From positions 1 to 64,000 of the forward strand of contig NZ_AQWM01000020.1 in the NCBI RefSeq assembly GCF_000376105.1: a DNA stretch of 64,000 nt, read 5' to 3'. The position numbers and the translations under genes are program-made. This stretch comes from Asticcacaulis benevestitus DSM 16100 = ATCC BAA-896 (GTDB lineage: Bacteria > Pseudomonadota > Alphaproteobacteria > Caulobacterales > Caulobacteraceae). Positions 6,767-34,005 of this stretch are shown in pieces (the first letter of the stretch is position 1; every line of letters begins with the position of its first letter). The notes under the pieces were generated by a model, which saw nothing but the letters and a program-made list of their open reading frames with translations, was not told the origin of the DNA and did no database searches.

Positions 6767-6783
6767 CAGAGAGGAAAACTGAT

Positions 6784-7401: not shown

Positions 7402-7615
7402 TTTACAGCGGTCACATCGCCAACCTTATTACAAATCCACCCTAGACTCTGGTCACCGGGTCAGAACTTGTCTTGCGCCAGTACATTGGATTGAACTATT
7501 GAAAGTATTGACGAGCCTTCGCATATCGCTTCAGGATAAACAAAGGCAATAAACTTGGAGACCTGCAGTCGCTCTTCTCCTAGACCATGGAAGTCAATTC
7601 AGGTCCGCCATATTG

Positions 7616-12926: not shown

Positions 12927-14354
12927 TCAATGTTGCGCCTTAACCGTTGGGTTTGCGGTCTTCTGTTTTCGTGACAACTCAGACGGCGAGACGACGTCAG
13001 GATTTTGGAAAGCGAATTGAAGCGAGGCGAGCAGACACAGACGGGCAAGCGATTCAGCCTGCCTTTTCATTGTCGACCAGTCATGGTCGAATCTCGAATT
13101 GGCGCCGTGAACCGTCTGACTACGCCCCTCACCATAGATCTGGGCAACCAGCTTTTTCATTGTGATGCCGCTTGCCGTGATCTTGTCGTCGGGTTTTATA
13201 CCCAAACGGGCTTCCAACAAGTCGCGGATCCCGGCCTCCTGCCGCGCAGTGCCAAGGGCATCCATGCAGGCACAGAATTTGACAATAGACATAAGGGTCG
13301 TTCCGTCTCGACAGGCTTCATGAAACCACAGCAGAGCCTGGCAAAGCGTCGCCATCATGTGAGGACGCGCAGTGGTTCGGTCTGCAGACACCAAATAGTC
13401 CAAGACCTGTCCAACCATTGAGAATTGCTGGGTTCTGATGTCCTCTTTCGATTGCCAATCCTCAGAATCTATATACGGCGCGGACGACATGTGAATCCTA
13501 CTCCCACCCATTGCATAACGTCCCGTTTGAGTGAAGGATAGATGGAAGCGTTGCGCGTGATCGCCGTCGTAACTCAGATTGAGGCCGCTCAGGGCTGTAG
13601 ATGGTGTGCCCCAATTCAAGGCGATAGCGGTTAGGGCGAGACGGGCAGCAAGCGCAGCTCTTTCTTCCGCAATGTTCGAAGCCAATCCACGGACAGCGAC
13701 ACTACAGATATAGGGACTTTCGCCCACCGCCTCAATAATGCCCCACTCGATCGACGCATCGTAACCTGGCCTCCTTTTCTTGATCTTTTTTCGGGCAAAC
13801 AGGCGCTTGAGACGGGCATGGGTGGTTTTCGACACTGCGGGGTTAGCCGAAATTCGATCGAGCCAAGCGTTTTTCGTCTCGAAAACAACCGGGCCAATTC
13901 TCAGAGGGGTGAAACCGTCGGCACCAAACAAGGTCGTTCCAAAATAGTGCTCGGCGTCGGAAGGTGTCGAGGCGGAAACTGCCTCTTTAATCCGAGCGAG
14001 AACAGCTTTCCCGCTCGCCTCTCTGTCCGCCGCCAGGTCGGTTCCAGCTAGTGCGGGACCTATGGCATCCCGCACAATGCCGATGATATCCTTGTCGGAG
14101 AAGCTATGCCTCATCTTATCTGAGTTGGATTTGATACCTAACGCCAGACCGGCAATCAGCGAGTCGATCTTGGCGTTGATAATGATCCCCTTGTTCTCGG
14201 TCACATAGAGCATTCTTGGTAGAATAAAGCTGTCAGCCTCCGAGATTTCGCGTCTCGACTTCCCTTTTATACGCGCGAGTTCCGCAAGTATCCCGCTCAC
14301 AATATCCAGATGCGATTGTCCCTGCACGTTACGATGTCCCATAACTTCACTCAT
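12927..14354 (-). CDS. Unknown protein with C-terminal HEPN-like R-x4-H motif
   Basis: This 475-residue protein has no family I can name over most of its length. Near the C-terminus (residues 411-416) is RSQTVH followed by G, and then a long helix (STMKRQAESLARLCLLASLQ). This R-x4-H-G plus helix arrangement is the catalytic pattern of ApeA-like HEPN ribonucleases. Residues 330-375 (HMMATLCQALLWFHEAC, MDALGTARQE) would be the preceding HEPN helices. No signal peptide or membrane segment is seen. First gene of a two-gene unit with the 168-residue protein. An RNase role in abortive-infection-type defence is an inference. Confidence 0.6.
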   Translation of the reverse strand: MSEVMGHRNVQGQSHLDIVSGILAELARIKGKSRREISEADSFILPRMLYVTENKGIIINAKIDSLIAGLALGIKSNSDKMRHSFSDKDIIGIVRDAIGPALAGTDLAADREASGKAVLARIKEAVSASTPSDAEHYFGTTLFGADGFTPLRIGPVVFETKNAWLDRISANPAVSKTTHARLKRLFARKKIKKRRPGYDASIEWGIIEAVGESPYICSVAVRGLASNIAEERAALAARLALTAIALNWGTPSTALSGLNLSYDGDHAQRFHLSFTQTGRYAMGGSRIHMSSAPYIDSEDWQSKEDIRTQQFSMVGQVLDYLVSADRTTARPHMMATLCQALLWFHEACRDGTTLMSIVKFCACMDALGTARQEAGIRDLLEARLGIKPDDKITASGITMKKLVAQIYGEGRSQTVHGANSRFDHDWSTMKRQAESLARLCLLASLQFAFQNPDVVSPSELSRKQKTANPTVKAQH

Positions 14355-14506
14355 TCTTCGAACCAGCGCGCACGCCGAGCGGAGGGTTTTTGGCTAAAGG
14401 CAGTCTACCCGATTCTAGAGATGACATGTTCGTTGAATGAGTTTTGAAGGAGGCAAATCTTCGAATGTTGAGTTGTGTCGACAACTGGAGCACATGCTGC
14501 GCACCA

Positions 14507-14669
14507 GTGCGAACACCGGTGGACACCAAAGGCCACATTGGTGTACTTTGAGTCTGTCTTAAGAACCAGCACGCAAACTCGGGGGGACTTTTGGGGGGAC
14601 TTTAGTTACCGCACCTTCTAATAGAAAATTGAATCAATTGACTATTTTAAAGGCTGCAGTCCTTTCCTG
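14507..14669 (+). repeat. 163-bp island-junction repeat, copy A (att-like)
   Basis: First of three same-length, same-orientation copies (others at 26317 and 28381). It begins GTGCGAACACC, contains the doubled motif GGGGGGACTTTTGGGGGGAC (14581-14600), the conserved AATAGAAAATTGAATCAATT block, and ends AAAGG-CTGCAGT-CCTTT-CCTG. Similarity to copy C extends about 15 bp further left. It occupies most of the 473-bp gap between the HEPN-like gene and the end of tpsA; no gene is seen in that gap. Confidence 0.85.
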
Positions 14670-14780
14670 CTTAGGCGGGCCTTCGATAAGGTGCTGATAA
14701 AATTGATTATTATTGAAATCTTGTGAGTTCACACAAGAGTTTTTTCTTAAACAGTGCGTCACAAGGACTCGTTATGAGTG

Positions 14781-14815
14781 TGTAAAGTCGTCGGGGAGGA
14801 TATCCGCCGACGACC
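14781..14815 (-). terminator. Hairpin terminator of tpsA
   Basis: Thirteen bases past the tpsA stop is a perfect 8-bp stem, GTCGTCGG (14787-14794) with CCGACGAC (14807-14814). On the minus strand it is followed by TTTACAC, a weak U-tract. Position and strand fit termination of the tps operon. Confidence 0.5.
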
Positions 14816-14827
14816 ATTTCACCAAGC

Positions 14828-17800
14828 CTACTTGTTGTTTTCAATGTCGTTGTCGCTGACACCATCAGGTAGTCGAACGCCGCCATCGGCTATGGCAAAG
14901 GTACGACGGAAGGTCAGAGAGTCACGTTCCAACGGCGGCAATGTGGTCGATTGCGTAGATTTAACCCCCTCATCCGAAGTGGCCACGGCATTGTCGCCGT
15001 CGCCCGTGCTGACTGCGGGACCCGACGTGCCGATTTGTGTTGTGAAGGTTGTGCCTGGCGAAGACACGACGGGGTTGACCGCTGTTGTTATGGCACTGGT
15101 ATAACCCGGAGATGTCGAATTGATAATTTCGCCCATATTGCCCGAAAGGCTGAAAGCCGCCAGTCTATAGTTCGCCAAGTCCGTATTGGCGCCAGCTTCG
15201 TAATTAGCCGCCGTAATTTGGGCCGTTACGATCTTATCCTTGCCCGCCGTGGCATCGACAAACTGGCCGAGCGTCTGATTGACCGTAATCGATTCGCCAG
15301 CCACCAAACCACCGAGCTTATAGTTGCCCGCGGTCAAAATGGCGGTCGTCGAACCGTCGCCCGTCTTCGAGACCGGCCCTTGCAAGGTAACATCAAACGC
15401 GCGCTTATCGATGTCTACCGTCGTAGTCGCCGTGGTGCTATAGACATAGTTGCCAGCATCCAAACCCGTTGCCGCAATCCCGCTGATTGAGACAGTTTTA
15501 CCCGTACCGGCATTCTTATCCGAAGCCGAGCCACTGCCGGTGAAAGCCACTTGGTCACCTTCCAAAATATCATTGGACGCAACCGAGACATTAAGTAGAG
15601 CCGAACCGTCATAGGTCTTGCCCTGGGCGCTGGCCGTCACCGCCACCGATTTCGCGGCGAAATCGACGGTCGTGGCTGTGGTCGCACTGTAGATATAGTT
15701 GCCCGCATCAGAGCCTGAGGCAAGGATGCCAGCGACCGCAACAGCCTTGCCATTGCCCGCATTTTTGTCAGAGGCCCTGCCTGCACCGGAGAAGATGACC
15801 GCATCTCCCGTGACAATACCACTAGAAGACAGGACTACGGAAACGGACGTTGAGCCGTCATAAATCTTATCTACGCCTTCCGCGTCAACTGCGACACTCT
15901 TCCTGGCTACATTGGTCTTGGTCAAGGCCTGAGTGTTATAGGCGTAATTGCCTTCATCCGTACCGGACCCGGTAATATCGCTCACGATAACCACCTTGTC
16001 CTGGCCGGCGTTCTTATCGGAGGTGGCACCCCGACCGGAGAAGGTCACGGTGTCGCCGTCGACAATGCCATTAGATGACAGTGTAATAAGGACGGAGGTT
16101 GCGCCATCATAGATCTTGTCACCGCTTTGAGCGTTGACCACGATCGACTTTTTAGCGATGTCAACTATAGCTGTGCCGGTCGAGGCATAGGTGTAATTAC
16201 CCGCGTCACTGCCCAAAGCTGCGATATTCGATACCGCAACTGACTTACCCGCGCCGGCATTTTTATCGACGGCATTGCCGTTACCGAAGAAGGCTACAGT
16301 GTCTCCGGTGATAATACCGTCTGATGCCAGATCGACACCGACCACGGCCGAACCGTCATACGTTTTGTTCTGGCCGATTCCTGTCACCGTAATCGATTTT
16401 TTAGCAATATTGACCGAAGCAGTTGTTGGCGCTGCGACATCATAGTTGCTAGCGTCGGTTCCCGTGGCGGCGAAGTTGCTCATCGTGACCGTTTTGCCCT
16501 GACCGGCGTTCTTGTCGGAAGCCGTCCCCGTAGCCGAGAAGGCTACCGTGTCACCATCGATAATTCCGGCAGAAGCCAGATCGACACCTACCGAGGTAGA
16601 GCCGTCATACGTCTTGTTCTGGCCGCTGGCTGCCACCGTGATCGCTTTTTTGGCGACATCGACCGTGGTGGCAACAGGCGCTGTGACATCATAGTTGCTA
16701 GCATCGGATCCCATGGTCGCGAAGCTCCCGATCGTGACCGTCTTGCCCTGACCGGCATTCTTGTCAGACGCCGCGCCAGTGCCGGTGAACGTCACCGTAT
16801 CTCCATTGACAATGCCGTTCGATGACAATCCAACGGAGACGGTCGCCGAACCATCATAGGTCTTGTTCTGGCCTGTGGCCGCAACAGAAATGGCTTTTTT
16901 CGCCACATCCGCCATCGTTGATGCCGTGGTGCTGAAGTCATAATTGGCAGCATCTGCGTCGGTGCTGGCGATGCCTGAGACATTGACCAGTTTACCTGTG
17001 CCTGCGTTCTTATTCGCCATGGCGCCAGTGCCGGTGAAGGTGACCGTATCGCCGTTTAGAATGTCGCTGCTGGCTACAGTAACCGCAATCGCGTTCGAAC
17101 CGTCATAGGTCTTGTTCGTGCCCGTCGCGGCTACAGAGATGGCCTTTTTCGCCACATCCGCCGTCGTTGATGCCGTGGTGCTGTAATCATAATTGGCGGC
17201 ATCGGCATCCGTGCTGGCAATATTGGAAACGCTCACGGTCTTGGCCTGACCGGCATTCTTGTTCGCCATGGTGCCAGTACCGGTAAAGGTGACCGTGTCA
17301 CCCTGAATGATATCGCTACTGGCAATGGTGACATTCGCCGAAGTCGAACCGTCGTAGGTCTTGTTCGTGCCCGTCGCGGCAACCGAAATGGCTTTTTTCG
17401 CCACATCCGCCGTCGTTGATGCCGTGGTGCTGAAGTCATAATTGGCGGCGTCGGCATCCGTGCTGGCGATTCCGGAAACGCTCACGGTCTTGGCCTGACC
17501 GGCGTTCTTGTTCGCCATCGCGCCGGCGCCGGTGAACGTGACCATATCGCTGTTCAGAATGTCGCTGCTGGCTACCGTAACCGCAATCGCGTTCGAACCG
17601 TCATAGGTCTTGTTCGTGCCCGTAGCGGCAACCGAAATGGTCTTTTTAGCCACATCCGCCGTCGTTGATGCCGTGGTGCTGAAGTCATAATTGGCGGCAT
17701 CGGCATCCGTGCTGGCAATGTTGGAAACACTCACGGTCTTGGCCTGACCGGCGTTCTTGTTCGCCATCGCGCCGGCGCCGGTGAACGTGACCGTATCGCC

Positions 17801-20800
17801 GTTCAGAATGTCGCTGCTGGCTACCGTAACTGCAATCGCGTTCGAACCATCATAGGTCTTGTTCGTACCTGTGGCCGCAACAGAAATGGCCTTCCTGGCG
17901 ATGTCGCCCAACAAGGTTTCGCCGGCCAGTTGGTAGTTGCTGACCAGGCCGCCATGATTGCCATCGGAGAGCGTATAGGTCGTGAGGACTGATTTGCCAT
18001 TAGCGGCAGTCTTGTTCCCAAAAGCGCCCGACGCCGATACGCCCAGTTCTTCATTGAGAACCAGTCCGTCAAGAGTGCCGGCAGTGATGCTAGCCGAGGT
18101 TAGGCCGTCATAGGTTTTGCCGGTAACGGCTGAGCCTGTGATGGACAATGCCTTCTTCGTCACTTCCACCGTCAGGCTGATGGGCGGCGTCAGATCATAA
18201 TTGTGCGCGTCTGCACCGCTCAGGACGCCGTTACCGGCGACGGTGACGGCTTTGCCGGCACCAACATTCTTATCGCTAATTGAGCCCGTAATACCGCTGG
18301 CGTCGATAGTCAGGACATCGCCGTGCTGAGCCGAGCCCGCTCCGGCAGTGCCGGTCAAAGATACATCGGTCGTGCCGTCATATTCACGATTGACGGCGCT
18401 GAGGCCGGTGACGGCGATAGAGGCCTTGGTGACGTCAATATTTTCGCTTGAGGCGGCATATTGATAACCCAGGCTATCGGTCACCGTGCCGTTGAGTACA
18501 TAGGCATAAGTGCCCACCTGACGTTTTCCAGCACCCGAAAGCGTACCCGGTGCTCCCAGTGTCAGAGTTTGGTTCGTGGTGAGTTTGGCAAACGTGTCGC
18601 CGTCGATGAATCCGGAATAGTTGCCCGCCCCAAGCGTAACGGTCGGATCAGCCGCCCCATATACGATTGAGCTTAGGTTGCTCACAACCGAAATCACCGG
18701 CGCTCTGCTGTAGAAGAACCAATTGCCGCTGGCGGCATACGATGGGCTCGCACCGGCGGTATAGGTCTCGTTATAGTGCTTGTTATAGTTGGTCAGGCCC
18801 TCGGTCGTGAATGTAGGATTGGCCGAATAGACCAGATAGCGACTACCGGTGCCAAGCCCGATGCCGGCCGCTCCACGATTGTTCACGAAGTTGCGACCGG
18901 CGGCAAGCGTGATAGTGTTGCTGGTACCCGTCGTCTGGACATTGCCAGCACCGCTGCCGAGGTTGATATCAGCCGTATTTCCACGCGCTTCGATGGTTAT
19001 GTTGCCGCTCGACCGGACCGTGTTGTCGACCGTGACCCCTCCGGCTTTGATATCGATGCTGGAGAAGGCCGTTGTAGCCCCGACATTGCCTATGGTGAGG
19101 TCGGCATTCGCACCGCCGTCATAGCCCGTCGTGTCGATAGTGAGCGCACCCGTGCCATTCAACGCCTTTCCATTCAGGGTCAGTTGGCCGGCGTCGTTCG
19201 GACCGTTCTCATCATTGGGCCGATCCGTAAAGAAGCTGATATTGCTATTGGTGGCGGCAAATGTACTATCGCCTTCAAAAGTGATATTGCCGCCATTGGT
19301 GCTGAGCGCACCGGTAAGCGTAATGACACCGCCGCTATAGGTTTGGGCACCTTCGGTGGCGATGTCACCCAAGGTTATCGCACGGTCGGTTGACGAATAG
19401 ATCCTCAGTGTATCGAGATATCCCGCTGCGCCATATATATTTCCGATGGAAAGGTTGCCGGAACTGGTGTTGTCACTCTTGCCGATGGTGAGGGCGACGT
19501 TTCCCATGTAACTAAAGCCCGCAATGCTGCCAATCGTCATGGCGCCGCTGCCCGAATCCAGGGTGAGCGACCTGTTGGCACGCAAGCTGCCATCAAACGT
19601 CATGGCGCCATTGGTTGCGGTCAGATCACCCCAGAGGTTGATATCACGTGCCGAATAGCTCTGAGCACCACTGGTCTTCACCACACCCAGGTTTATCTGG
19701 CGGCTATAATTATAGTAGTTGTTGTAGTTGTTGGGGTCGGGGTAGGGGCCCGTTAGGCCCAGCGTACTTATGGTCAGGGTTGATGCCGTGAATTCCGAGG
19801 TAGAATTCTGACCTCCCAGGGTAACGGACCCGGCTAGAGCATATAACTGCGAAGCCGAGGCGTCGAACGTGGCCGCACGATCTGCCTGATGGGTGACTTC
19901 GCCATCAAACCTGATATCGCCAACGAACATGGCATTATTGCTGGCATCTGTATCCATAACGAAATCGACATTGTTATAGCCGACATTGGTCGTGCCTTTC
20001 GCCCAGAAACTCCCCCCAAGGAGCACTTGCCGGGCATAGAGGTTAATCATGCCATATTGGGGCGCATGCCCACCCGGCGCATACTGTGAGCTAAAGGCAT
20101 CCAACCTAAGGTCAGAAAGATAGGAACCGGCCCGATTGTCAATCATATCGCCGAGACTGATACTGCCCACAAAGCCCTGACCTGAACTCGCATTGAGGTT
20201 CAGCCCGTAGGACCCGCCGCGTGAAGAAATGGAGCCGCCGTAACTGGCATAGTTGGTATTGAGGCTGATCGCTCCGGACTGCCCCTGAAAACTGCCGCTA
20301 CCTATATAAACGTAGGTCAAAAGGTCTATGCCATGCGTACCGGTGAGTGAAATGTCCCTGCCACTTCTGCTGAGACCGCCATTCAGTTCAAGAATTTTCG
20401 CATAAAGGCTGAAATCGCCGCCACCATATGCAGTGCTTTCGTCGAGGCGGATGGTGCGCTGGCTGGCGTTGAGGCTGAAGTTGCGGGAATTATAGCCTAG
20501 CACCGTATTGTTGTCGCCGACGATGAGTTCTGTGCCGTCGTCCGAGAAGTTGATATCATCATCGCCGATCAGGCCGATGGCGATCGTCTGGTTGGTTTGC
20601 TCCAGACCCAGCGAGATGTTCACCGACTTCAGGTAATCTTGCGTCACTTCCTGAATGTTGACATTGCCTTGCTGGGTATTGACGGTGAGCTTGGCATTTT
20701 CGACACCCGCCGCCTCCGCGATCTGGATATCATAGCCATTGGCGCCAAGGGTGGAGGCGGTCGGCGTCGGATCGTTGGAGACGTTGAAGGTGACATCACC

Positions 20801-23773
20801 GCCGGTGATCTGGGCGATGGGATTGCCACTGTCATAAAGATTTTGCGCCGCAATGACACCTGTGGCGTTGAAGCGAGTAATGCCAAGCGTCAGATTGGTA
20901 TTGTAGAACTCGCCCCACAACGTGGCGCCGGCCCCCATGCGAATGGAATCATCACCCAACAGAATATCGCCATCACGGGCATTGAGCGTAAGACTCCTGA
21001 AGTTGCGCGACAGGTCAATGCCAGTGGTAGAACCGAATGTCGCGCCATCTGACGCCCCGCCTGAAACCGTCGGCGTTACGATGGCCGAACCGTCCGTGGT
21101 AAAATCGATATGATCGCCACCGCTAAACAGAATCGAATGCGTGCCCGCCGCCTTGGCGTAGTCAAGCGTGATGTAGCCAAACCCGTCGTTGACTGATTTC
21201 ACATAGGTGCCGCCCCCGGAATTATAGACGTTAAGCGACCCTTGGTAGAGACCTTCTTCGGTATAATTATCAGCCAGTTCCAGCGGGTTGGACGAAGTGC
21301 CAATGTTGCCGCCATTGAGGGTTATATTACCCCCGACAATATCCGCGACGCCATCATCTGTGCCGGTGATGTTCGTGGCACTGACGGTCAGGCTGGCCGA
21401 GCCCATATCAACAGCGCTGGAGGCAAAATTGATATCGGCTGCCGACAGAGTAAGATTGATCGGATAGGTGCCGTCGTAGGTGTCAGGAGCGAAACCGCTT
21501 AAGCCGATGCTATTCGTCGCCACCTGGAGGACGCCCGCACCGTCCGTTGTCAGATCTACATGTCCGCCACCGGTGTTATTGGCATCAGCTAGAATATTGA
21601 TATGGTGTTCGCTGCTGACCTGACTGCCGATCGATACGTTAAGCTGCGTCGAGTGCTGCGCACCGATCTCCTTCACCCACGAACTGCCGCCGCTATTGGA
21701 TACGCTCAGTGAACCGTAGGCATTGCCAGCGTTAAGCGGATCACCGCCCGAAAGGGTAATGGCCTGAACGGATGAACCGATATCGCCCGCGGTTGCATTC
21801 AGACTTACGCCAACACGCGCCACGATGTTGGCATCAGTACCAGAGCTCGTACTGAGGATTGATCCGGCATTAATGGCCAGACCGGAACCGCGCTGCGAAT
21901 TTACGCCATCGTTATAATAGACCGGATAAGTGGATTGCCGGAAAAGAAGGCTGTTCGCATCCAGCGACACTATGCCGTTCACAGAGATATCGAAGAAACC
22001 GCCTGCGCCGACATCGATCTGGCTGCCGGCAGCCATCGTGAAGTCCTGACCGCTTTTGGTGTTGTTGTAACCTGATAAGGCACCGGCGTAGAAGTTGCCG
22101 CCATTGGTCAGGATCTTGCCGTTTGAACCGAATGCAATATTGCCGGTCGCGTTATTGTCACTGTCGGCAGTCAGGACGACGTTCAGGCGATTACTCGTGC
22201 TGGATATCGAGTTATTGATGTTGATGTCGCCTGCCGCCAGCAGGCTTAAGGTTGCGGCCTCACCGCTCGATTTCAGAATATCCGCATTAACATTGATATC
22301 ACCGTTGGAGTTACCGGTTGAGCCGGTCGTGATGGTGACCGCAGTCCCCGCGTTCAACGAAGCGTCGATGGCGCTGGCCAATATAGCCGAGTTAACATTA
22401 GGATCGTAGTCGGCGTTGTATGCCGTACCGCTGGCGCCTGCCTCCACGATGCTGACATCGACCGGATCGAGCAGCCACTTACCCGCTTCGCCACTCACGG
22501 CGCTGGCATCGACCGCGCCCATGGCCTGAAGCTGAAGACGACCGGAGGTTTCGACCTTGCCGCCATTGCCGCCTAGCGCGCCGCCGGTGGCTTTAATATC
22601 GCCGTAAAAGCCAGTGCGATCTTCCGACCACAGAACGACCGTACCGCCGTCACCTGACTGGCGAGCACTGACATCGATCACCGCGTCAGGGGCAACCAGA
22701 ACCGTCGACGCATTCCTGATGCTCGCGTCCTTGCCCTGCCAGCCACCGCCGACCAGAACCGTGCCACCACCCGTGGCGCCCGACGCGTCAATCCGGCTAC
22801 CTTCGGCCAGGGTGATGGTATCGCCGGTTAACACGACCTTGCCGCCGACCGTCGCGAGGCTTGAGGCTTCGATGATACCGGTATTGTTGACCGAGGATTT
22901 GGCCAGAGCGTCAAAGGCGTCCGATGTCAAATAGATACGTCCGCTGTCGGCCTTGATCACGCCGCCATTGCTGACCAGAGCGTCATAGGCGCCCTGCTCA
23001 ATCGTCAAGTCGAGTCCGCCGGTATCGAGACGAATCGTCACATCATTAGCGGCAACCAGACGCACTTCACCCTTAGCCGCCGTGATGGCGCCGTCATTGA
23101 TGACCTGCGCGCCAACCAGAGCGACATAACCGCCCTTACCGGCGGTTAGCGTGCCTTCATTGATGACCGCGCCATTGCCGGTGCCGGAAAAGCGGTATTT
23201 GCCCGCCATGAAATCTTCGACAGAGATATCGCGCGTTGATGCCATAATGGCCGCCGCACTGACCTGCGATCCCTTGGCAAACAGAACACCATTGGGATTG
23301 ACCAAAAAGACCTGTCCATTGGCCTGAAGGACGCCGTAAATCTTCGAAGCATCGCCGCCAAGCACGCGGTTCAGCGCGATAGCCGAGGCGTTAGGTTGGT
23401 TGAAAACAACCTTGCCATCCTTGCCGATATCAAAGGCTTGCCAATCGATAGCGGCGTTCTGCGTCGTCTGGTTTATGGTTTGGGTGTTGCCGGATTGCGT
23501 GATTGTGGCATGACCGCCCACGACCTGGCCGCCGGTCGGCAGGACTGCGGACTGCGGCTCTGAAGTGCGTATCACAGGTGTTGGCTGAACGGCTGGCGAC
23601 ACCCCTCCAGGGTCTGCGAGTGCACCCGTCGCGGCCGAAAGCAGGGCCAAGGCGGCGGCAGCCAGGCTGGCGAAGAGGCCGCCCTTCCTCTTGCCGCGCT
23701 TCTGCGAGACTTCCGGAATGGGGATATAGCAACCCTTAGACTCGCTCCACACCAGACGGTAAAACCGGTTCAT
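14828..23773 (-). CDS. tpsA: TpsA: giant two-partner-secretion exoprotein with YDG/MBG repeats
   Basis: This is a 2981-residue secreted filamentous haemagglutinin-like protein. The start at 23773 gives the extended signal-peptide region MNRFYRLVWSESKGCYIPIP, then a basic stretch and the hydrophobic core ALLSAATGALADPG. The TPS secretion domain covers about residues 60-300, with the NPNGVLF motif near 160. A long beta-helix-type stalk follows to about 1680. Then come an MBG domain (VYGAADPTVTLG, about 1700), twelve YDG units (about 1780-2795) and a Ser/Thr-rich tail. No CDI-type toxin C-terminus is seen. The cognate transporter gene ends 77 bp upstream. An adhesin or biofilm role is inferred from family. 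Confidence 0.93.
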   Translation of the reverse strand: MNRFYRLVWSESKGCYIPIPEVSQKRGKRKGGLFASLAAAALALLSAATGALADPGGVSPAVQPTPVIRTSEPQSAVLPTGGQVVGGHATITQSGNTQTINQTTQNAAIDWQAFDIGKDGKVVFNQPNASAIALNRVLGGDASKIYGVLQANGQVFLVNPNGVLFAKGSQVSAAAIMASTRDISVEDFMAGKYRFSGTGNGAVINEGTLTAGKGGYVALVGAQVINDGAITAAKGEVRLVAANDVTIRLDTGGLDLTIEQGAYDALVSNGGVIKADSGRIYLTSDAFDALAKSSVNNTGIIEASSLATVGGKVVLTGDTITLAEGSRIDASGATGGGTVLVGGGWQGKDASIRNASTVLVAPDAVIDVSARQSGDGGTVVLWSEDRTGFYGDIKATGGALGGNGGKVETSGRLQLQAMGAVDASAVSGEAGKWLLDPVDVSIVEAGASGTAYNADYDPNVNSAILASAIDASLNAGTAVTITTGSTGNSNGDINVNADILKSSGEAATLSLLAAGDININNSISSTSNRLNVVLTADSDNNATGNIAFGSNGKILTNGGNFYAGALSGYNNTKSGQDFTMAAGSQIDVGAGGFFDISVNGIVSLDANSLLFRQSTYPVYYNDGVNSQRGSGLAINAGSILSTSSGTDANIVARVGVSLNATAGDIGSSVQAITLSGGDPLNAGNAYGSLSVSNSGGSSWVKEIGAQHSTQLNVSIGSQVSSEHHINILADANNTGGGHVDLTTDGAGVLQVATNSIGLSGFAPDTYDGTYPINLTLSAADINFASSAVDMGSASLTVSATNITGTDDGVADIVGGNITLNGGNIGTSSNPLELADNYTEEGLYQGSLNVYNSGGGTYVKSVNDGFGYITLDYAKAAGTHSILFSGGDHIDFTTDGSAIVTPTVSGGASDGATFGSTTGIDLSRNFRSLTLNARDGDILLGDDSIRMGAGATLWGEFYNTNLTLGITRFNATGVIAAQNLYDSGNPIAQITGGDVTFNVSNDPTPTASTLGANGYDIQIAEAAGVENAKLTVNTQQGNVNIQEVTQDYLKSVNISLGLEQTNQTIAIGLIGDDDINFSDDGTELIVGDNNTVLGYNSRNFSLNASQRTIRLDESTAYGGGDFSLYAKILELNGGLSRSGRDISLTGTHGIDLLTYVYIGSGSFQGQSGAISLNTNYASYGGSISSRGGSYGLNLNASSGQGFVGSISLGDMIDNRAGSYLSDLRLDAFSSQYAPGGHAPQYGMINLYARQVLLGGSFWAKGTTNVGYNNVDFVMDTDASNNAMFVGDIRFDGEVTHQADRAATFDASASQLYALAGSVTLGGQNSTSEFTASTLTISTLGLTGPYPDPNNYNNYYNYSRQINLGVVKTSGAQSYSARDINLWGDLTATNGAMTFDGSLRANRSLTLDSGSGAMTIGSIAGFSYMGNVALTIGKSDNTSSGNLSIGNIYGAAGYLDTLRIYSSTDRAITLGDIATEGAQTYSGGVITLTGALSTNGGNITFEGDSTFAATNSNISFFTDRPNDENGPNDAGQLTLNGKALNGTGALTIDTTGYDGGANADLTIGNVGATTAFSSIDIKAGGVTVDNTVRSSGNITIEARGNTADINLGSGAGNVQTTGTSNTITLAAGRNFVNNRGAAGIGLGTGSRYLVYSANPTFTTEGLTNYNKHYNETYTAGASPSYAASGNWFFYSRAPVISVVSNLSSIVYGAADPTVTLGAGNYSGFIDGDTFAKLTTNQTLTLGAPGTLSGAGKRQVGTYAYVLNGTVTDSLGYQYAASSENIDVTKASIAVTGLSAVNREYDGTTDVSLTGTAGAGSAQHGDVLTIDASGITGSISDKNVGAGKAVTVAGNGVLSGADAHNYDLTPPISLTVEVTKKALSITGSAVTGKTYDGLTSASITAGTLDGLVLNEELGVSASGAFGNKTAANGKSVLTTYTLSDGNHGGLVSNYQLAGETLLGDIARKAISVAATGTNKTYDGSNAIAVTVASSDILNGDTVTFTGAGAMANKNAGQAKTVSVSNIASTDADAANYDFSTTASTTADVAKKTISVAATGTNKTYDGSNAIAVTVASSDILNSDMVTFTGAGAMANKNAGQAKTVSVSGIASTDADAANYDFSTTASTTADVAKKAISVAATGTNKTYDGSTSANVTIASSDIIQGDTVTFTGTGTMANKNAGQAKTVSVSNIASTDADAANYDYSTTASTTADVAKKAISVAATGTNKTYDGSNAIAVTVASSDILNGDTVTFTGTGAMANKNAGTGKLVNVSGIASTDADAANYDFSTTASTMADVAKKAISVAATGQNKTYDGSATVSVGLSSNGIVNGDTVTFTGTGAASDKNAGQGKTVTIGSFATMGSDASNYDVTAPVATTVDVAKKAITVAASGQNKTYDGSTSVGVDLASAGIIDGDTVAFSATGTASDKNAGQGKTVTMSNFAATGTDASNYDVAAPTTASVNIAKKSITVTGIGQNKTYDGSAVVGVDLASDGIITGDTVAFFGNGNAVDKNAGAGKSVAVSNIAALGSDAGNYTYASTGTAIVDIAKKSIVVNAQSGDKIYDGATSVLITLSSNGIVDGDTVTFSGRGATSDKNAGQDKVVIVSDITGSGTDEGNYAYNTQALTKTNVARKSVAVDAEGVDKIYDGSTSVSVVLSSSGIVTGDAVIFSGAGRASDKNAGNGKAVAVAGILASGSDAGNYIYSATTATTVDFAAKSVAVTASAQGKTYDGSALLNVSVASNDILEGDQVAFTGSGSASDKNAGTGKTVSISGIAATGLDAGNYVYSTTATTTVDIDKRAFDVTLQGPVSKTGDGSTTAILTAGNYKLGGLVAGESITVNQTLGQFVDATAGKDKIVTAQITAANYEAGANTDLANYRLAAFSLSGNMGEIINSTSPGYTSAITTAVNPVVSSPGTTFTTQIGTSGPAVSTGDGDNAVATSDEGVKSTQSTTLPPLERDSLTFRRTFAIADGGVRLPDGVSDNDIENNK
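15391..18431 (-). repeat. Tandem ~249-bp coding repeats (YDG units) in tpsA
   Basis: Twelve units, each marked by K-x-YDG near the start and DKNAG or NKNAG in the middle. The block from about 16,650 to 17,900 is nearly identical at DNA level with an exact period of 249 bp (83 residues): the marker CCACATCC recurs at 16903, 17152, 17401 and 17650. Units toward the C-terminus are diverged, the first two (N-terminal) are atypical, and a thirteenth is degenerate (KTGDGS). The near-identity of the central units points to recent duplication or gene conversion. Confidence 0.9.
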
Positions 23774-23850
23774 GCCACCGTGATCGTACATTGGGTAATC
23801 CTCGAAGAATGCTTGCGCCTTCGGCGCGTCATCGTCTGAAAGTATGGAAT

Positions 23851-25533
23851 TTAGAAGCTGTAACCGAGCGAAGCCCACAGGCGCGGATTGTAATCGGGTG
23901 CTGTGGTAGCCTTGTCGCCATTATGGAACGCCATAGTGACGCGCGCATTGACATGACCACGCTGAGCCGCTGCCGACACGCCGTAGCTATCGAGTGATTG
24001 GGCGTTGCGACCCGGCGCATAGAGGTTACGGCTGATCTGCACACGGCCAGCGTCATAGAAGCCCGATACCTGCAAACCGTCGCGGACGTTATGGCGCAAT
24101 TCGGTATTTATCAGCCAGCCGGTATCGCCTGAGCCTTCACCTTGCGGATAGGCACGCACGCCATAGATACCCCCAATTGTGAATTTTTCCGATGAATCGA
24201 GGTTCTTGCTGGTGGCCTGCGTATTCAGTGACAGCGAAAGGCTTGTCTTTTTAGTGATTGCCTGAAGGCGCGAGGCGGTAAAGGCGACCTTGGTGTAAGC
24301 ACCTGCCGTTTTCGCGCCCAGCCGGTCGGTGGCGCGTGCGCTCGCGGAATGGATGTTCAGTTCACCGGAAGCATAGGATAGGCTCCAGCTATTGTAACCA
24401 CCGCCCCAAAATGCGTCTGTCAGATCGCCGTAGGCCGAAACCGTGGCAACAGCCGAAGACTTGCCAGTGATGACTTTCACCGAAGCGATCTCATCCTCCA
24501 GATCACGGCTTTCAAGATTGGCGCTCAGCCAGATATTGTGATTCAGACCGCGCACAACCGGATAGAGGGCATAAAGACCCGTGGTTCTGGCCGTGCCAGT
24601 CGCGTCCAGCGTGGCAAATTCACGGCCTAGCTCATAGCTACTGTTCGATAGGGCAGCGCCGATGCGGAGACCGTTCGCGCCCATAGGCAGGTCATAGGCC
24701 AGTCGTCCGTAGATCATGTCTTCATTGGTCAGCGTGGCCTGAGCCGATAGACGATCCCCGATATTCAGGGGACTGTTGACCGCCACCTGTCCGCTGAGAC
24801 GGGTATCTCCCGTATAGCGATTGCCGTAATTGTCGAGGCTGACGTTGCCCTCAAACAGCTTGCCAGCGCCTGTGGTAACGACGAGGTCGGAAGTACCAAC
24901 CCCGGCGCCCGGCTTGAGCTTGCCTGCCACCTTGCCCACGCCCGGCAAATCCGCCAATAGCAATAGGGGCCGGTCGGTCGTGCTAGACAAAATAACTTCG
25001 CCGTTCAGTTTTTGCGCATCAAGCACGGCCTGAAGATAGCTGTCGCGAACCTTACTATGATTGTCCACAGTGAGGCTTGATAGCCTGCCTTCCAGCACAC
25101 GAATGATCACTAGGCCGTCATCGATCGTCTGGGCGGGTATGTAAGCGCGAGCGACGACATAGCCCTGAGCCCGGTAATAGTCGGTAATACGGCGGACTGC
25201 GACGCGCAACTCACCCAGCGACTGTTCCTTGCCCTGAACATCGCCAACGAGTGCCATCAATGCCTGAGTTGTGAAGCGTGTATTGCCTTCAATGCGCAAG
25301 GTCGAAACCATGAGACGCTGCGACGGGTCGGACCCGGGATCGGTTTCGTCTGGCACCGTCAGACTGGGAGCGGTGCCCCGTCTCAGCGGCTCGACGGGGA
25401 AGCGATTTTCACGCAGGGTCTGACCAGCATCGGGTGGCGAGACGGTCTGAGCGAAGGCTGAGGCCGGTATCAGCCCAAAAGCTGTTGCCAGCAGGCTGAG
25501 GCAGGAGACGCGGCGAAGGATGTGACGGGACAT
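23851..25533 (-). CDS. tpsB: TpsB: ShlB/FhaC-family outer-membrane transporter
   Basis: This 560-residue protein has a signal peptide (LSLLATAFGLIPASAFAQ) and a proline-rich linker. A POTRA region follows (LRIEGNTRFTTQALMALVGD, then RRITDYYRAQGYVVARAYIP). A 16-strand barrel comes after that, with the family motif GVRAYPQGEGSGDTGW (about 460-475), a variant of the VRGY tetrad on the pore loop. It ends in an aromatic residue (SLGYSF), as outer-membrane barrels do. It should export the adjacent TpsA. tpsB precedes tpsA in one operon, the usual order. Confidence 0.93.
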   Translation of the reverse strand: MSRHILRRVSCLSLLATAFGLIPASAFAQTVSPPDAGQTLRENRFPVEPLRRGTAPSLTVPDETDPGSDPSQRLMVSTLRIEGNTRFTTQALMALVGDVQGKEQSLGELRVAVRRITDYYRAQGYVVARAYIPAQTIDDGLVIIRVLEGRLSSLTVDNHSKVRDSYLQAVLDAQKLNGEVILSSTTDRPLLLLADLPGVGKVAGKLKPGAGVGTSDLVVTTGAGKLFEGNVSLDNYGNRYTGDTRLSGQVAVNSPLNIGDRLSAQATLTNEDMIYGRLAYDLPMGANGLRIGAALSNSSYELGREFATLDATGTARTTGLYALYPVVRGLNHNIWLSANLESRDLEDEIASVKVITGKSSAVATVSAYGDLTDAFWGGGYNSWSLSYASGELNIHSASARATDRLGAKTAGAYTKVAFTASRLQAITKKTSLSLSLNTQATSKNLDSSEKFTIGGIYGVRAYPQGEGSGDTGWLINTELRHNVRDGLQVSGFYDAGRVQISRNLYAPGRNAQSLDSYGVSAAAQRGHVNARVTMAFHNGDKATTAPDYNPRLWASLGYSF

Positions 25534-26316
25534 AGGCGTTTCTCTGAATCGGCGGTTGTGCGGCGACAGGCCATGAAGAAGCGTTTGCCCGTGGCAATTG
25601 CCCAGACACCCGATGGATATGAAAGAAAAGTGGAGTGTAGCCGCGTATTAACGCAGGCTGTCAGGACCCAATAACAAAGATGCCGGTAACTCAAGCGAAA
25701 ATGGATACATATAATTACTCAACTAAATAGCTTAATTTAACCAGGCACCCCTTTTGGGCGCGATGTGTAAATGGAGTAAGAAATAATAAGACTAACAATA
25801 GATTACCGCAGCCTGAGGATCCATCTTCTGACGGAACGCGCAATATTCAATTTGCCAGGCGCGCTCAAAAATTACGGAAAAAGGTGATTTGCGGCGGTAT
25901 GTCTGCCAAAAACAGGCGGTAGTGCCCCTGCAAGCCTCGCTTAGACAGGCAAATTAGCTGGTATGCGGGGCAAAGGTCTCGTTACCAGTATGGCCAGTTT
26001 CACGCGAAGTAAGCCTGAATTTTTCACTGTAATTCGTCGGAAAGAATACGGTCAATTGTACGGCGGACACCGAAAAGGTAATATATTAGTCAGAATTTAT
26101 TTCACTTCCCAGCATCTTTTTTGTAAACTAACCCACTTAGGCGAGAACGGCGACAGACTTTGTGGCGATTTGCGTTGCCTTACGATGTGGTAGATGCAGC
26201 GCTTCAGTAGCGCTCCCAATATCAAATGACACGGTATTACGGCGCACGAAACACAGAGGCACAGATGCGTGCTGTTAAATCTTGACGCGAGCTCCCCAAT
26301 TGGCACCTGTGGCCTT
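25534..26316. other. AT-richer intergenic region upstream of tpsBA
   Basis: About 780 bp without a convincing gene between tpsB and repeat copy B. It must hold the tpsBA promoter, read leftward, but I could not assign a clear -35/-10 pair. Short open frames present here have no recognisable domain or good ribosome-binding site. The base composition is more AT-rich than the neighbouring genes, consistent with acquired DNA. Confidence 0.5.
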
Positions 26317-26479
26317 GTGCGAACAACAGTGGACACGTGCGACCAACTTTGTGCATTTTGATTTTAGTCTTGAACTCCTGCATGCAGGTTGGGGGGCATC
26401 TGGGGGGACTGCAGTTCTCGCACCTTTCTAATAGAAAATTGATTCAATGGACTATTTCAAAGGCCGGCGTCCTTTCCTG
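26317..26479 (+). repeat. 163-bp island-junction repeat, copy B (att-like)
   Basis: Same length and orientation as copies A and C but the most diverged of the three. It keeps GTGCGAAC at the left, the paired G-runs (GGGGGGCATCTGGGGGGACT), CTAATAGAAAATTGATTCAA, and the right end AAAGG-CCGGCGT-CCTTT-CCTG (26459-26479). It separates the two-partner secretion genes from hipBA. Confidence 0.85.
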
Positions 26480-26624
26480 ATGAGACGACGAGTTTCAACT
26501 TATTGATAGTTATAAGTTATTCGCCCGACTTGTATTGAAGCAAGGTTAGATTTTCTAAAAAAAGTGCTTGGGCCTGAAACGTCCAAGAAACCGATCGTTT
26601 TTACAATTTCGACAGGCGGGGCCC

Positions 26625-26722
26625 ATACCCCAAGTGGCATAAATAGAGCTTATACCCCATACGGCATAACAAGACAATATACCCCAACTGACCTATTGTA
26701 AATTTATCCCAGTTGGGGTATA
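26625..26722 (+). promoter_or_regulatory. hipBA operator array
   Basis: Four copies of a TACCCC-type site precede hipB. ATACCCCAAGTGGCATAA (26625-26642) and ATACCCCATACGGCATAA (26652-26669) are direct repeats 27 bp apart. TATACCCCAACTG (26678-26690) and CAGTTGGGGTATA (26710-26722) form a perfect 13-bp inverted repeat. The last arm lies just before the hipB start. This fits autorepression by HipB or HipAB binding several operators. Confidence 0.75.
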
Positions 26723-26742
26723 GCCAAGCAATGGAGATGCAA

Positions 26743-26997
26743 ATGATTCAGATGGCTCGATCCCCCAAGCAATTCGGCGCAGCACTGCAACAGCGCCGGT
26801 CCCAAAAAGGCCTATCTCAATCAGCACTCGCTGATCTCATCGGAACGGGCCAGAAAACCATATCTAAAATTGAAAATGGAAATCCAGCGACAAAACTAGA
26901 GACCTTGTTCTCACTTCTGGCAGCCCTTGATTTGGAACTTGAGATCAAGCCCCGAAGTAAGAGCAACCCGAATGAACAATGGGAAGACTACCTCTAA
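26743..26997 (+). CDS. hipB: HipB-type antitoxin (Xre-family HTH)
   Basis: An antitoxin of about 84 residues with a Cro/C1 helix-turn-helix: FGAALQQRRSQKGLSQ, then SALADLIGTGQKTISKIENG, then the dimer helix LETLFSLLAALDLELEI. Several in-frame starts exist (TTG 26713, ATG 26731, 26737, 26743, 26752). 26743 is chosen because GGAG lies 6 bases upstream and earlier starts run into the operator. HipB neutralises HipA and represses the operon. The TAA stop overlaps the hipA ATG (TAATG), showing translational coupling. Confidence 0.85.
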   Translation: MIQMARSPKQFGAALQQRRSQKGLSQSALADLIGTGQKTISKIENGNPATKLETLFSLLAALDLELEIKPRSKSNPNEQWEDYL

Positions 26998-28355
26998 TGG
27001 CCCGTCGCAAAACACACATCCCATTGAACGTGGTTTTGAACAATCGACTTGTTGGCAAGCTGGAGAAGGAAACGAGTGGTGCAATCCGATTCCAATACGA
27101 TCCAACTTGGTTAGACCGTCGAGGCAGTTTCGCAATATCACTGTCTCTCCCGCTAAAATCGTCGGCATATCGCGGCGAACCCGTCGTTGCCGTCTTTGAC
27201 AATCTCTTGCCCGACAATGAGCGCGTTAGAAGGCGCGTCGCTGAAAGAATGGGAGCGCAGGGCACGGACTCCTACAGCCTTTTGGAACAGATTGGGCGCG
27301 ATTGTGTCGGAGCTCTGCAATTTCTACCCGACGATATAAACGTCGATCCCGTGTCGGACATTACAGGCGAGCCCATAAGTGACGAAGAAATCGAGCACCT
27401 ACTCGCCAATCTTGAAAATGCCCCGCTTGGCATGGACGATGAGCACGAGTTTCGAATATCCGTAGCTGGCGCTCAAGAAAAGACAGCTCTTCTGCGCTAC
27501 GAGGAAAGGTGGCTGAGACCGACAGGTACGACACCCACGACCCATATTCTAAAGCCACAAATAGGTCAGATACCGACCGCCTTCGGAACCATTGACCTGT
27601 CCAACAGCGTCGATAACGAACATTACTGTTTAAAACTGATGGAAGCCTTCGGTCTGACAGTCGCCAAAACTGAAATTGCCACCTTTGGAAAAAGGCGTGT
27701 CCTAGTTGTCGAACGCTTTGACCGCCAGTGGCTGAACGAAGGCAAGAGATTGCTAAGATTGCCGCAAGAGGATTGTTGCCAAGCTCTCGGTATACCTCCG
27801 AACCAGAAATATCAAAGCTCAGTACAAGGCGGCAAAAACGGCCCAAGCGCGGTCGATATTTTACAGCTTTTGAAAGCCGGCGATAAGGCGCTCCAAAATC
27901 AAATGGAGTTCTTTAAATCTCAAATAATTTTCTGGCTCATAGGCGCAACCGACGGCCACGGAAAGAACTTTAGCGTATTCTTGCGTCCTGGCGGCGGTTT
28001 TGAACTCACGCCTTTCTACGACGTATTATCCGCACAACCCGTTTTCGATCAAAAACAAATACCACATAACAAATACAAACTGGCGATGTCAGTCGGAGAC
28101 AGCAGAAAATACGCCATCCTAAATATTAGGGGGCGACATTTTACAGAGACAGCAAAAGAGGCCGGGCTGGGACCAACACTAATCAACCAGGTATTTGGCG
28201 AAATTCTCTCCGCTGCACCAGACGCAGCGGACCGAGCGCTCGCACAAATGCCGAAGGACTTTGCAATGGATATTCACGAAAGTGTAAAAGCTGCGATCAT
28301 GGGTCGAATAAGATATCTACAAGATATAGAAAACCAAACCGACGAACCAAGTTAA
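26997..28355 (+). CDS. hipA: HipA-type Ser/Thr kinase toxin
   Basis: This 452-residue protein starts at the ATG overlapping the hipB stop. The N-subdomain (VVAVFDNLLPDNERVRRRVA) is followed by the flexible loop ISVAGAQEKTALL, which contains the Ser that is autophosphorylated in E. coli HipA. Next come the nucleotide-binding segment HILKP, then VVERFDRQW, the catalytic TDGHGKNFS and the metal-binding region PFYDVLSA. All key motifs are intact, so the kinase should be active. HipA kinases phosphorylate tRNA synthetases such as GltX and induce dormancy. The gene is AT-richer than the core genome and bracketed by repeats B and C, indicating acquisition. Confidence 0.92.
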   Translation: MARRKTHIPLNVVLNNRLVGKLEKETSGAIRFQYDPTWLDRRGSFAISLSLPLKSSAYRGEPVVAVFDNLLPDNERVRRRVAERMGAQGTDSYSLLEQIGRDCVGALQFLPDDINVDPVSDITGEPISDEEIEHLLANLENAPLGMDDEHEFRISVAGAQEKTALLRYEERWLRPTGTTPTTHILKPQIGQIPTAFGTIDLSNSVDNEHYCLKLMEAFGLTVAKTEIATFGKRRVLVVERFDRQWLNEGKRLLRLPQEDCCQALGIPPNQKYQSSVQGGKNGPSAVDILQLLKAGDKALQNQMEFFKSQIIFWLIGATDGHGKNFSVFLRPGGGFELTPFYDVLSAQPVFDQKQIPHNKYKLAMSVGDSRKYAILNIRGRHFTETAKEAGLGPTLINQVFGEILSAAPDAADRALAQMPKDFAMDIHESVKAAIMGRIRYLQDIENQTDEPS

Positions 28356-28380
28356 CAACGAAGATACATGCAGCGCATCC

Positions 28381-28543
28381 GTGCGAACACGGGTGGACAC
28401 CAACGGTCATATGGGTGTAATTTGAGTCTGTCTTAAAACCCAGCACGCAAGCTTGGGGGGACTTTTGGGGGGACTTTGCCCTCACACCTTTCCAATAGAA
28501 AATTGATTCAATTGACTATTTTAAAGGTCCGAGTCCTTTCCTG
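28381..28543 (+). repeat. 163-bp island-junction repeat, copy C (att-like)
   Basis: It closely resembles copy A by eye, including GTGCGAACAC, TTTGAGTCTGTCTTAA, the block GGGGGGACTTTTGGGGGGAC (28455-28474) and GAAAATTGATTCAATTGACT. It ends AAAGG-TCCGAGT-CCTTT-CCTG (28523-28543). It starts 25 bp after hipA and marks the right side of the hipBA module. Confidence 0.85.
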
Positions 28544-28982
28544 ACACCCACACTGAAAACCGTTCAGCAACACGAAAAACCCAACGATATCAGCGAGCCT
28601 CAAATCGGACTCGAACCAGACGATCCATCATGCACGGGAAAGGAGGGCTCCCCTCCTTTCCTGGGACCATTAGGTTGTTCACATCTGTCCTTAGATGTTT
28701 GAAAACCTCTTAAAAATATAGTATTCAGCGACCTTAAGTGTCCGCAACCGTATCTCCGCGCCCACAACCATCCGGGCAAATTGGGGGTATTGCTGGGGGT
28801 ACATGGCAAATATACGATGGGTGATGTCCTAAGCGCTGAGCACCCCCTATGCCCCCCGCGGCATGGACAAAACCATGCCTGCGCCGCCCAAAAGAATTGC
28901 GGTTGAGTTTGCCACTACCGCTTTTTACAGGCGAATCAACTTACTCTATAGTAACAACTTAAGTGATTCGTTCGGATAAACC
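28544..28982. other. Island/core boundary: tRNA T-arm-like fragment and a second G-run motif
   Basis: No gene is seen in these 439 bp. On the minus strand 28607-28617 reads GGTTCGAGTCC, a perfect T-loop sequence, but no complete tRNA can be folded around it. At 28781-28802 a motif of two GGGGGTA-type runs (TTGGGGGTATTG, then CTGGGGGTAC) resembles sequences found just inside P4-type integrase attachment sites. Right of this, the sequence becomes core-like and leads to divL. This is probably the scar of a further integration event. Confidence 0.5.
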
Positions 28983-31424: not shown

Positions 31425-31429
31425 CCCGT

Positions 31430-32398
31430 CTATCCGGCGTGGAACAGGGCGCGCATCAGGTCAGACTTGCTGACCATGCCTTCGAGCCGCCCCTCGTCAT
31501 CGACCACCATAACATGGCGACGATCACCCTTGGCCAGTATCGGCAACAGTTCGGTGGCGGAATCCCTGGCCTTCACACGCGCATAGGTCTGGCGCATGAC
31601 CTGACCCGCCGGCAGTGAGGGTTCGGACTTGAGCGTATCGTCGAGTCGCAGCAATCCCATCAGCTTGCGGCGGCTATCAACTACCGGCAGGGCCTTGATA
31701 TCATGGCGCGCCATGGTGGCCTCGGCGAAACTGAGCGGTGTATTCGGCGCGATCGTGCGCAACTTAGCCACCATGATCTGGCCGCAGGTCATCTTGCGGG
31801 CGAGGCGCATATAGGCCTGCATCTCGGTTTGTTCGATCAGCTTTTCAACATCTTCGCGGCTGATATCGAGCGCCTGATTATAGCCCAGCAGGGCAGCCTC
31901 CAGATCGGACGGATCGAAGCGATGCAGGGCCAGCAGGTGTGGCGCGCCGCTGACAATCTGACGCTGCGGATATTTGACGCCGGTCAGATGATGGTAGGCG
32001 ATGGCGACGATAACCAGAACAGCGGCGTTGACCGCCACCGGGAACAGAATGAACGACCAGTCGGTTGTCTGGGCGATGACCACGAACAGGGCGGTGCCGC
32101 CGCCAGAGGGATGCAGGGCACGCAAGCTGACCATCAGCAGGACCGCCAGGGCGACAGCCGTACCGGCGCCAAGCGCCGTATGGCCAAACAAATGAAAAGC
32201 GATCAGACCGGCCAGGGCCGACAGGGCATGCCCGCCGATAATCGGCCAGGGCTGCGACATCGGCGAACCCGGCACAGCGAAGACCTGCGCGGCCGAGGCG
32301 CCGAGCGGGGCCATCAGCCACCATTTGAGATGCAGATCGTGCTCGAACAGGCCGCAAATCAGGGCGGTAAGAGCTATGCCAAGGAAAACACCGCCCAC
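31430..32398 (-). CDS. HPP-family membrane protein with CBS pair
   Basis: The N-terminal half has four hydrophobic helices and the HPP signature RALHPSGGGTAL (about 92-103). The C-terminal half is a CBS tandem (CGQIMVAKLRTIAP...LPVVDSRRKLMGLLR, then AGQVMRQTYARV...VMVVDDEGRLEGMVSKSDL). HPP proteins are implicated in nitrite or anion transport, and CBS domains usually bind adenosyl ligands. The start given is the first GTG (322 aa), but the frame stays open upstream, encoding FFEDFIPPPTR, which looks like the normal HPP N-terminus. A non-standard upstream start near 32475 is possible. It overlaps or follows creD and is convergent with divL. Confidence 0.85.
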   Translation of the reverse strand: MGGVFLGIALTALICGLFEHDLHLKWWLMAPLGASAAQVFAVPGSPMSQPWPIIGGHALSALAGLIAFHLFGHTALGAGTAVALAVLLMVSLRALHPSGGGTALFVVIAQTTDWSFILFPVAVNAAVLVIVAIAYHHLTGVKYPQRQIVSGAPHLLALHRFDPSDLEAALLGYNQALDISREDVEKLIEQTEMQAYMRLARKMTCGQIMVAKLRTIAPNTPLSFAEATMARHDIKALPVVDSRRKLMGLLRLDDTLKSEPSLPAGQVMRQTYARVKARDSATELLPILAKGDRRHVMVVDDEGRLEGMVSKSDLMRALFHAG

Positions 32399-32471
32399 GA
32401 TAAGGATGCGCTGACGGGCATCTATACGCGTGGGCGGCGGAATAAAGTCCTCAAAAAAGGCTTCTAGCTCC

Positions 32472-33902: not shown

Positions 33903-33968
33903 CGTGGTTTCCTTGAAAGGCGTCCAGGCGACAGCGGAGGCACTGCCGGACGTCACGATATCAGATTG

Positions 33969-34004
33969 TGAACATTGTTCAATAAATAAAATGAACGCCG
34001 TTCA
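33969..34004. promoter_or_regulatory. Paired TGAAC-N3-GTTCA operators upstream of creD
   Basis: Two perfect palindromes, TGAACATTGTTCA (33969-33981) and TGAACGCCGTTCA (33992-34004), have centres 23 bp apart, about two helical turns. They lie between the creD start and the end of the upstream gene. The form is typical of TetR-family operators. No regulator gene adjacent to creD is an obvious owner; the nearby PadR has a different site of its own. Confidence 0.65.
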
Positions 34005-34005
34005 C

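Follow-up and report, generated by a model that had tools for sequence, protein, structure and literature searches.

That bacteria can acquire accessory genes by the accretion of elements at tRNA attachment sites is already known, and several described systems come close to the locus analysed here. CIMEs, as the relevant passages of one source present them, are elements that have lost their integration and transfer genes and that lie, as tandems flanked by attachment sites, at the 3' end of a target gene (PMC5704250). The Islander account, in the parts that concern integration sites and tandems, describes tyrosine-integrase islands that are bounded by a restored tRNA gene and a displaced 3' fragment, with crossover subsites that include the T-loop and the T/acceptor junction, and it counts, among 3919 islands, 125 tandems with at least two members and 4 with at least three (PMC4383910). 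In Dehalococcoides, the sections of the report that deal with ssrA place many tandem islands downstream of this one RNA gene, 15 of which lack an integration module and are regarded by the authors as possible cis-mobilizable elements (PMC3146451). Another example is the mycobacteriophage Ms6, for which the description of attP and tRNA-Ala gives a core that spans the 7-bp T-loop, where its authors infer strand exchange (PMC1762012).

The window, which is the whole 64,000-nt stretch of Asticcacaulis benevestitus DNA analysed here (from contig C20), contains three copies of a repeat, A, B and C, which very probably are attR-type ends of P4-like tRNA-Leu(CAG) islands, the locus being a CIME-like series of islands that have decayed, lack an integrase and accumulated by accretion at a tRNA hot spot. 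As in the accretion of CIMEs, ICEs and IMEs, integrase-less modules lie between attachment sites, but in contrast to the CIMEs of the cited passages, the window shows only right-end (P-side) sites between the modules, with no P' arms and no intact attL seen there (PMC5704250). The Islander method, as its authors outline it, requires an integrase for each tandem member, so an array of the window's type would go unresolved, and a further difference is that the displaced fragment lacks one G in the islands studied here (PMC4383910). The Dehalococcoides islands described around ssrA share the tandem arrangement at one RNA gene and a conserved motif beside the repeat; however, they employ serine recombinases and a tmRNA gene, whereas an Arm-DNA-bind_3 tyrosine integrase and tRNA-Leu are found here (PMC3146451). 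With Ms6, the locus shares a core that spans the 7-bp T-loop of a tRNA, but the efficiency of Ms6 is reported to drop with T-loop changes, whereas the right ends compared here differ in their T-loop letters, with the missing G pointing to exchange further right (PMC1762012).

Copies A, B and C and the genes between them

The original prediction described three repeats in a single orientation, each with paired G-runs, a AATAGAAAATTGA block and an AAAGG-N7-CCTTT motif, and all of these are present in A, B and C (Table 1), with a similarity far beyond chance. Compared with copy C, A is 86% identical (E 8e-48) and B 76% (E 2.5e-24), and small gaps are needed to align the three. The 7-nt centres, which had been noted as different, read CTGCAGT in A, CCGGCGT in B and TCCGAGT in C. 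The copies were also said to be exactly 163 bp long, but while they are real at the positions of Table 1, this length is set by the choice of ends: to the left of the tabulated start, A and C are alike at 12/15 bases, then at 7/15 and 4/15, and since their likeness extends about 15 nt further, the repeat has no natural length of 163 bp. At the other end, on the right, the constant part runs through CCTTTCCTG, after which divergence is immediate, the first 15 bases beyond the core being alike at 0 (A/C), 6 (A/B) and 3 (B/C) positions.

Table 1. Features of the window, with positions counted from its first base.
Feature	Position	Strand	Description
Mobilisation element left of A	441-7337	+	MobA/MobL relaxase 3803-6766; parts 76-88% like the element at tRNA-Phe in G022
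Copy A	14507-14669	+	Right-end site (P arm and tRNA-Leu-like core); G-run arms from 14581; core 14649-14669
A-B cargo, two-partner secretion pair	14828-25533	-	Exoprotein 14828-23878 (TPS, YDG repeats); transporter 23851-25533 (ShlB/POTRA); Pfam
Copy B	26317-26479	+	Right-end site; G-run arms from 26391; core 26459-26479
B-C cargo, hipBA	26743-28355	+	84-aa hipB-like ORF 26743-26997 (by eye); hipA 26979-28355 (Pfam)
Copy C	28381-28543	+	Right-end site; G-run arms from 28455; core 28523-28543
Remnant of tRNA-Leu 3' end and left (P') arm	28654-28807	+	G-run arms from 28783; 83% to C7 tRNA 3' end and P' arm; no integrase behind
Histidine kinase, right border of island	28983-31424	+	Orthologue borders the tRNA-Leu island in G022

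Read leftwards from the histidine kinase, the tRNA remnant is followed by C, hipBA, B, the two-partner secretion pair, A and the mobilisation element, with which the series reaches the first bases of the contig. Between A and B and between B and C, where the two-partner secretion genes and hipBA lie, no genes for integration or transfer were seen, and the segment left of A carries a relaxase. The exoprotein has 13 YDG stretches (Pfam), and at positions 15602-18047 its gene contains 249-nt tandem units that are 60-90% alike to one reference copy.

Some further features of the window lie near these modules. An ORF of 1571 aa (7613-12328), which adjoins the relaxase gene and contains an AAA_16/NACHT-like ATPase stretch, could encode a defence protein. 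Another ORF, of 475 aa (12927-14354), starts about 150 nt from A, where an integrase could sit; it has no Pfam match and was therefore not called an integrase. Between C and the kinase, a near-perfect hairpin at 28633-28658 (GGAAAGGAGGG..CCCCTCCTTTCC, by eye) takes the place of the T-arm in the tRNA remnant. The contig itself begins in a transposase-like end (by eye).

The repeat is not widespread: the 5-Mb genome has three copies and the congener G022 one. A search of 41 genomes (its own, 24 of the genus and 16 of the order) returned, besides A, B and C, only the G022 copy (83% over 114 nt) and a match of 24 nt in G018, which agrees with a pattern search of the genus that detected the repeat in 2 of 25 genomes. 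Class-wide (385 genomes), the matches were confined to the own genome, plus a 31-nt match in one other. No match was obtained in the plasmid search, nor in Rfam for positions 14000-29000 up to E 0.1. A scan of genome contigs and viral sequences (five viral loci) was carried out for TCAATNGACTATTTNAAAG; among the 124 matches listed, a script flagged five, none of which had G-run arms in the 70 nt inspected, and the genome contigs listed belong mostly to AT-rich genomes. A pattern composed of G-runs and AGG-N7-CCTTTC found A, B and C plus single chance-like matches in the genus, and it is unspecific alone, as 8 of 25 genomes also had matches to the reversed control pattern.

Core and arm repeats of the sites

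The core AAAGG-N7-CCTTTCCTG matches the T-arm of tRNA-Leu(CAG), which reads GAAGG-TTCGAGT-CCTTTCCTG (GAAGG-TTCGAGT-CCTTTCCTGGGCACCA in G022). Copy C ends in 20 bases of which 19 agree with this tRNA, so the inverted flanks AAAGG/CCTTT are its T-stem, and the 7-nt centre its T-loop. The idea of a tyrosine-recombinase core with a 7-bp overlap is borne out in that the copies are attachment sites of tyrosine-recombinase elements, but not in its details, the flanks and centre being those of the tRNA T-stem and T-loop rather than a free-standing core. Of the tRNA 3' end, only the T-arm and CCTTTCCTG are left in A, B and C, from which CACCA is absent. A tRNA pattern with up to three mismatches gave 81 matches, against 40 in the control, and the only mismatch-free match was the tRNA itself.

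Each copy has two G-run arm repeats, with the core about 60 nt further on. The same spacing is found at 11 of 11 sites (A, B, C, the G022 copy, C67 and those of G012, G013, G015, G016, G020 and G023), at which the second upstream G-run begins 60-62 nt before the T-loop position; G015 and G023 entered this set via a core match, and a core match in G008, with no arm visible in 100 nt, was omitted. Across both strands of the 64-kb window, the arm regex has four matches, which correspond to A, B, C and the tRNA remnant. The word TGGGGGGACTTT occurs four times in the whole genome (once in A, twice in C and once in C67, beside the integrase), its reversed control having no occurrence, and GGGGGGACTTT repeats are carried by A and C. 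The arm word of B differs from TGGGGGGACTTT, and the P' arm word of C67 recurs in A and C, not in B. To the right of A or B, no P' arm was seen (by eye).

The AT-rich block that precedes the core appears to resemble an IHF site. Beyond the window, the arm regex has matches in 5 of the 11 integrase loci of the own genome, and in all four congener islands compared (G012, G013, G016 and G020) the arm repeats are alike at both island ends (by eye). In the proposed layout, each site would comprise a P arm, formed by two integrase arm-type repeats and then the AT-rich block, and a core that copies the tRNA T-loop and the bases following it.

Integrases and tRNA-Leu(CAG) islands in this genome and in congeners

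A six-frame search of the whole genome for PF13356 gave 11 matches, none on contig C20, so that the original remark that the window has no integrase holds for this family, and 16 window ORFs compared with all of Pfam likewise yielded none. Integrases of the fitting family are present elsewhere in the genome, on C7 beside tRNA-Leu and on C67. C7 has the order epimerase, tRNA-Leu(CAG), integrase, with the same epimerase gene flanking the tRNA in G022, and it ends 5.5 kb past the tRNA. C67 (8.8 kb) contains a P-core-P' tandem junction, which is made up of arms TTGGGGGTATAATTGGGGGTATC, then CCTTTCCTGGCACCATTAGG and then a P' arm with one TGGGGGGACTTTTT. Downstream of this junction lie an integrase, in which the three expected domains are all present, and an ORF that is hipA-like by eye; parts of C67 are similar to the G022 tRNA-Leu island, at 75% on the integrase side and 88% on the hipA-like side.

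Integrases with a central domain, a catalytic domain and the Arm-DNA-bind_3 domain, which we take to be the one linked to the name "P4-like", are found beside a tRNA 3' end in C7 and G022 at tRNA-Leu(CAG), in G022 at tRNA-Phe, and in G012, G016 and G020; that of G013 is split into two ORFs. For the integrases at tRNA-Met, -Asn, -Thr and -Leu(CAA), no displaced tRNA fragment was found in the 54.6, 54.0, 38.4 and 6.8 kb searched, respectively.

Within the genus, tRNA-Leu(CAG) lies within about 1.5 kb of the epimerase in 17 of 25 genomes, and paired G-run arms lie at most 260 nt from the tRNA in 9 of these 17 (by eye). Islands could be traced from tRNA-Leu to their right end in G012 (about 13.6 kb), G013 (20.6 kb), G016 (16.1 kb) and G020 (8.7 kb), all of which have a far-end copy of the tRNA 3' end with the same right-end layout as A-C; in G024, no right end was found within 22 kb out from the tRNA. 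The right ends of G016 and G012 run into the terminator that lies directly 3' of the tRNA in island-free congeners (G006/G011, G017), which thus provide the empty sites for this island family. In G022, tRNA-Leu(CAG) and the histidine kinase of the window's right flank, 13.4 kb apart, bracket one island of about 13 kb that has an integrase, and many transposase ORFs occur at this locus (by eye).

Regarding the region of positions 28733-34005, G018 and G021 have the order kinase, HPP, CreD, epimerase, with no tRNA-Leu between. Relative to this order, the kinase segment is inverted with respect to the epimerase in the own genome (G000) and in G022, and the island lies at the breakpoint. The tRNA may thus originally have had a right flank other than the kinase.

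The repeat copy of G022 (L041, 16774-16888) is situated between a tRNA-Phe island and ORFs that resemble an ATPase, a response regulator and a DNA methyltransferase (by eye). Its orientation does not fit the adjoining tRNA-Phe island, and there is no tRNA within about 38 kb on its other side. That it could be an end of the Phe island, as its centre TCCGCGT also occurs in the Phe anticodon stem, was ruled out by this orientation and further by the proper tRNA-Phe 3' fragment that was found for the Phe island in G000.

Explanations of the array and the place of strand exchange

According to the accretion model, successive islands would enter at tRNA-Leu(CAG) and push older islands away, and the older islands would have lost their integrase and left (P') arm, leaving the cargo (two-partner secretion, hipBA) punctuated by right-end sites. 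This model is supported by the homology of A-C with the right ends of tRNA-Leu islands in four congeners, by the presence of the tRNA at the corresponding locus of G022, by the fitting integrases and the tandem junction of the own genome and by the arm word that A and C have in common with the C67 integrase region alone. The lack of an integrase and of a P' arm in the A-B and B-C segments is what decayed, CIME-like elements would show. Because new islands would enter at the tRNA, the copies nearer the kinase would be the older ones. We infer that C7, C67 and C20, which are separate contigs of a draft assembly, belong to one array, and we extend this inference to the order of arrival, to the loss of the integrases through decay and to the present immobility of the array. 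What speaks against accretion is that the three contigs are not joined in the assembly and that A-C have neither CACCA nor a P' arm on the right, so that none of them is a complete attR or tandem junction. The ill-fitting orientation of the G022 repeat copy, the homologues in G024 and G005 that have no such site beside them in the stretches examined, and the inversion breakpoint at the right border also count against it.

The missing P' arm after A and B would equally suit a multiplication of the right-end copies by duplication or homologous recombination, with the cargo arriving via other routes, such as insertion sequences, for which the transposase-rich G022 locus and the transposase-like start of C20 (both by eye) also speak. 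This origin is nonetheless unlikely: the differences among A, B and C amount to 14-24%, the arm words of B are its own, and the likeness stops sharply to the right of each core, as it does for separate elements.

Less probable still is the system first proposed, in which non-autonomous cassettes are mobile in trans and a 7-bp overlap varies by site. When A, B and C are compared, no part of the core varies more than the centre, with 5 of its 7 columns variable against 3 of 33 in the surroundings (Fisher P 0.0015), and the lack of a PF13356 integrase on C20 would fit as well. However, the three copies mismatch one another at 3-4 of the 7 centre bases, which should hinder excision, and the AAAGG flank is limited to A, B and C among 11 comparable sites, being missing at the other 8 (AAAGA in the G022 copy). 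The centres of the other right ends are TTCGAGT (twice), TTTGAGT (twice), TGTGAGT, CGCGAGT, TGAGGCG and TCCGCGT. Moreover, in all six right ends that keep CACCA, the G run before it is one G shorter than that of the tRNA (two in G012), which argues against exchange in the centre; these six, from G012, G013, G016, G020, C67 and the tRNA-Phe island on C6, were all found without using the missing-G feature.

The trans-mobile cassettes are also disfavoured by the fact that no empty or exchanged cassette site was found. The modules do look like serial additions without their own integrase, as had been suggested, but a precise gain or loss of a single cassette was not found, and neither was an empty site with a matching 7-nt centre in the genomes examined. 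At E 1e-30, two of the 25 genomes of the genus have a homologue of the two-partner secretion transporter, G022 not being among them, and homologues of hipA occur in 3 of 25 at E 1e-60, the G022 locus holding a different hipA (66%). The tRNA-Leu locus of G022, which has been rebuilt by insertion sequences, contains no A-C copies. The stretches examined around the transporter homologue of G024 and the hipA homologue of G005 have no A-C-like site, and around the hipA homologue of G022 there is no comparable site apart from the tRNA. Finally, a dispersed repeat with no relation to the islands, such as a MITE, a REP-like element or an RNA gene, placed between the modules by chance, would likewise be short, non-coding and of few copies, but it has next to no probability in view of the Rfam result, the mere three copies in 5 Mb, the tRNA-like core with integrase-type arms at a fixed spacing and the contradicting island right ends in congeners.

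With regard to strand exchange in the accreted islands, the original prediction that different overlap sequences are allowed in a 7-bp overlap is not supported, as no result identifies the 7 nt as the overlap of strand exchange and the missing G before CACCA hints, at the level of sequence, at exchange at the tRNA 3' end. Were the strands exchanged in the T-loop, each displaced fragment would begin as a perfect tRNA copy and would have had to lose its G on its own, by chance or selection; it would be simpler if the bases before CACCA belonged to the element and exchange lay further right. At the tRNA 3' end, only GCACCAT is common to both ends of the G020 island. Against this speaks the G022 copy, which reads CATGGGC and then TTAG, with the G run whole and ACCA absent, whereas A, B and C have neither of the two. 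More tentatively, and with a low probability, it may be proposed that this integrase clade exchanges strands at the very tRNA 3' end (GCACCAN) rather than in the T-loop, the P-side T-arm being an element-borne recognition copy that the deleted G keeps different from the tRNA end, and that half-sites like A, B and C could gather cargo in trans without a left arm. On either view of the exchange position, A, B and C themselves are probably dead sites.

In terms of biology, the accretion of decayed islands would explain why a core histidine kinase gene has a hipBA pair and a large surface exoprotein system next to it, and the results show tRNA-Leu(CAG) to be an integration hot spot in the genus. 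The set of right ends, in which the arms are paired and a G is systematically missing, also constitutes a natural data set for locating the strand exchange carried out by such integrases.
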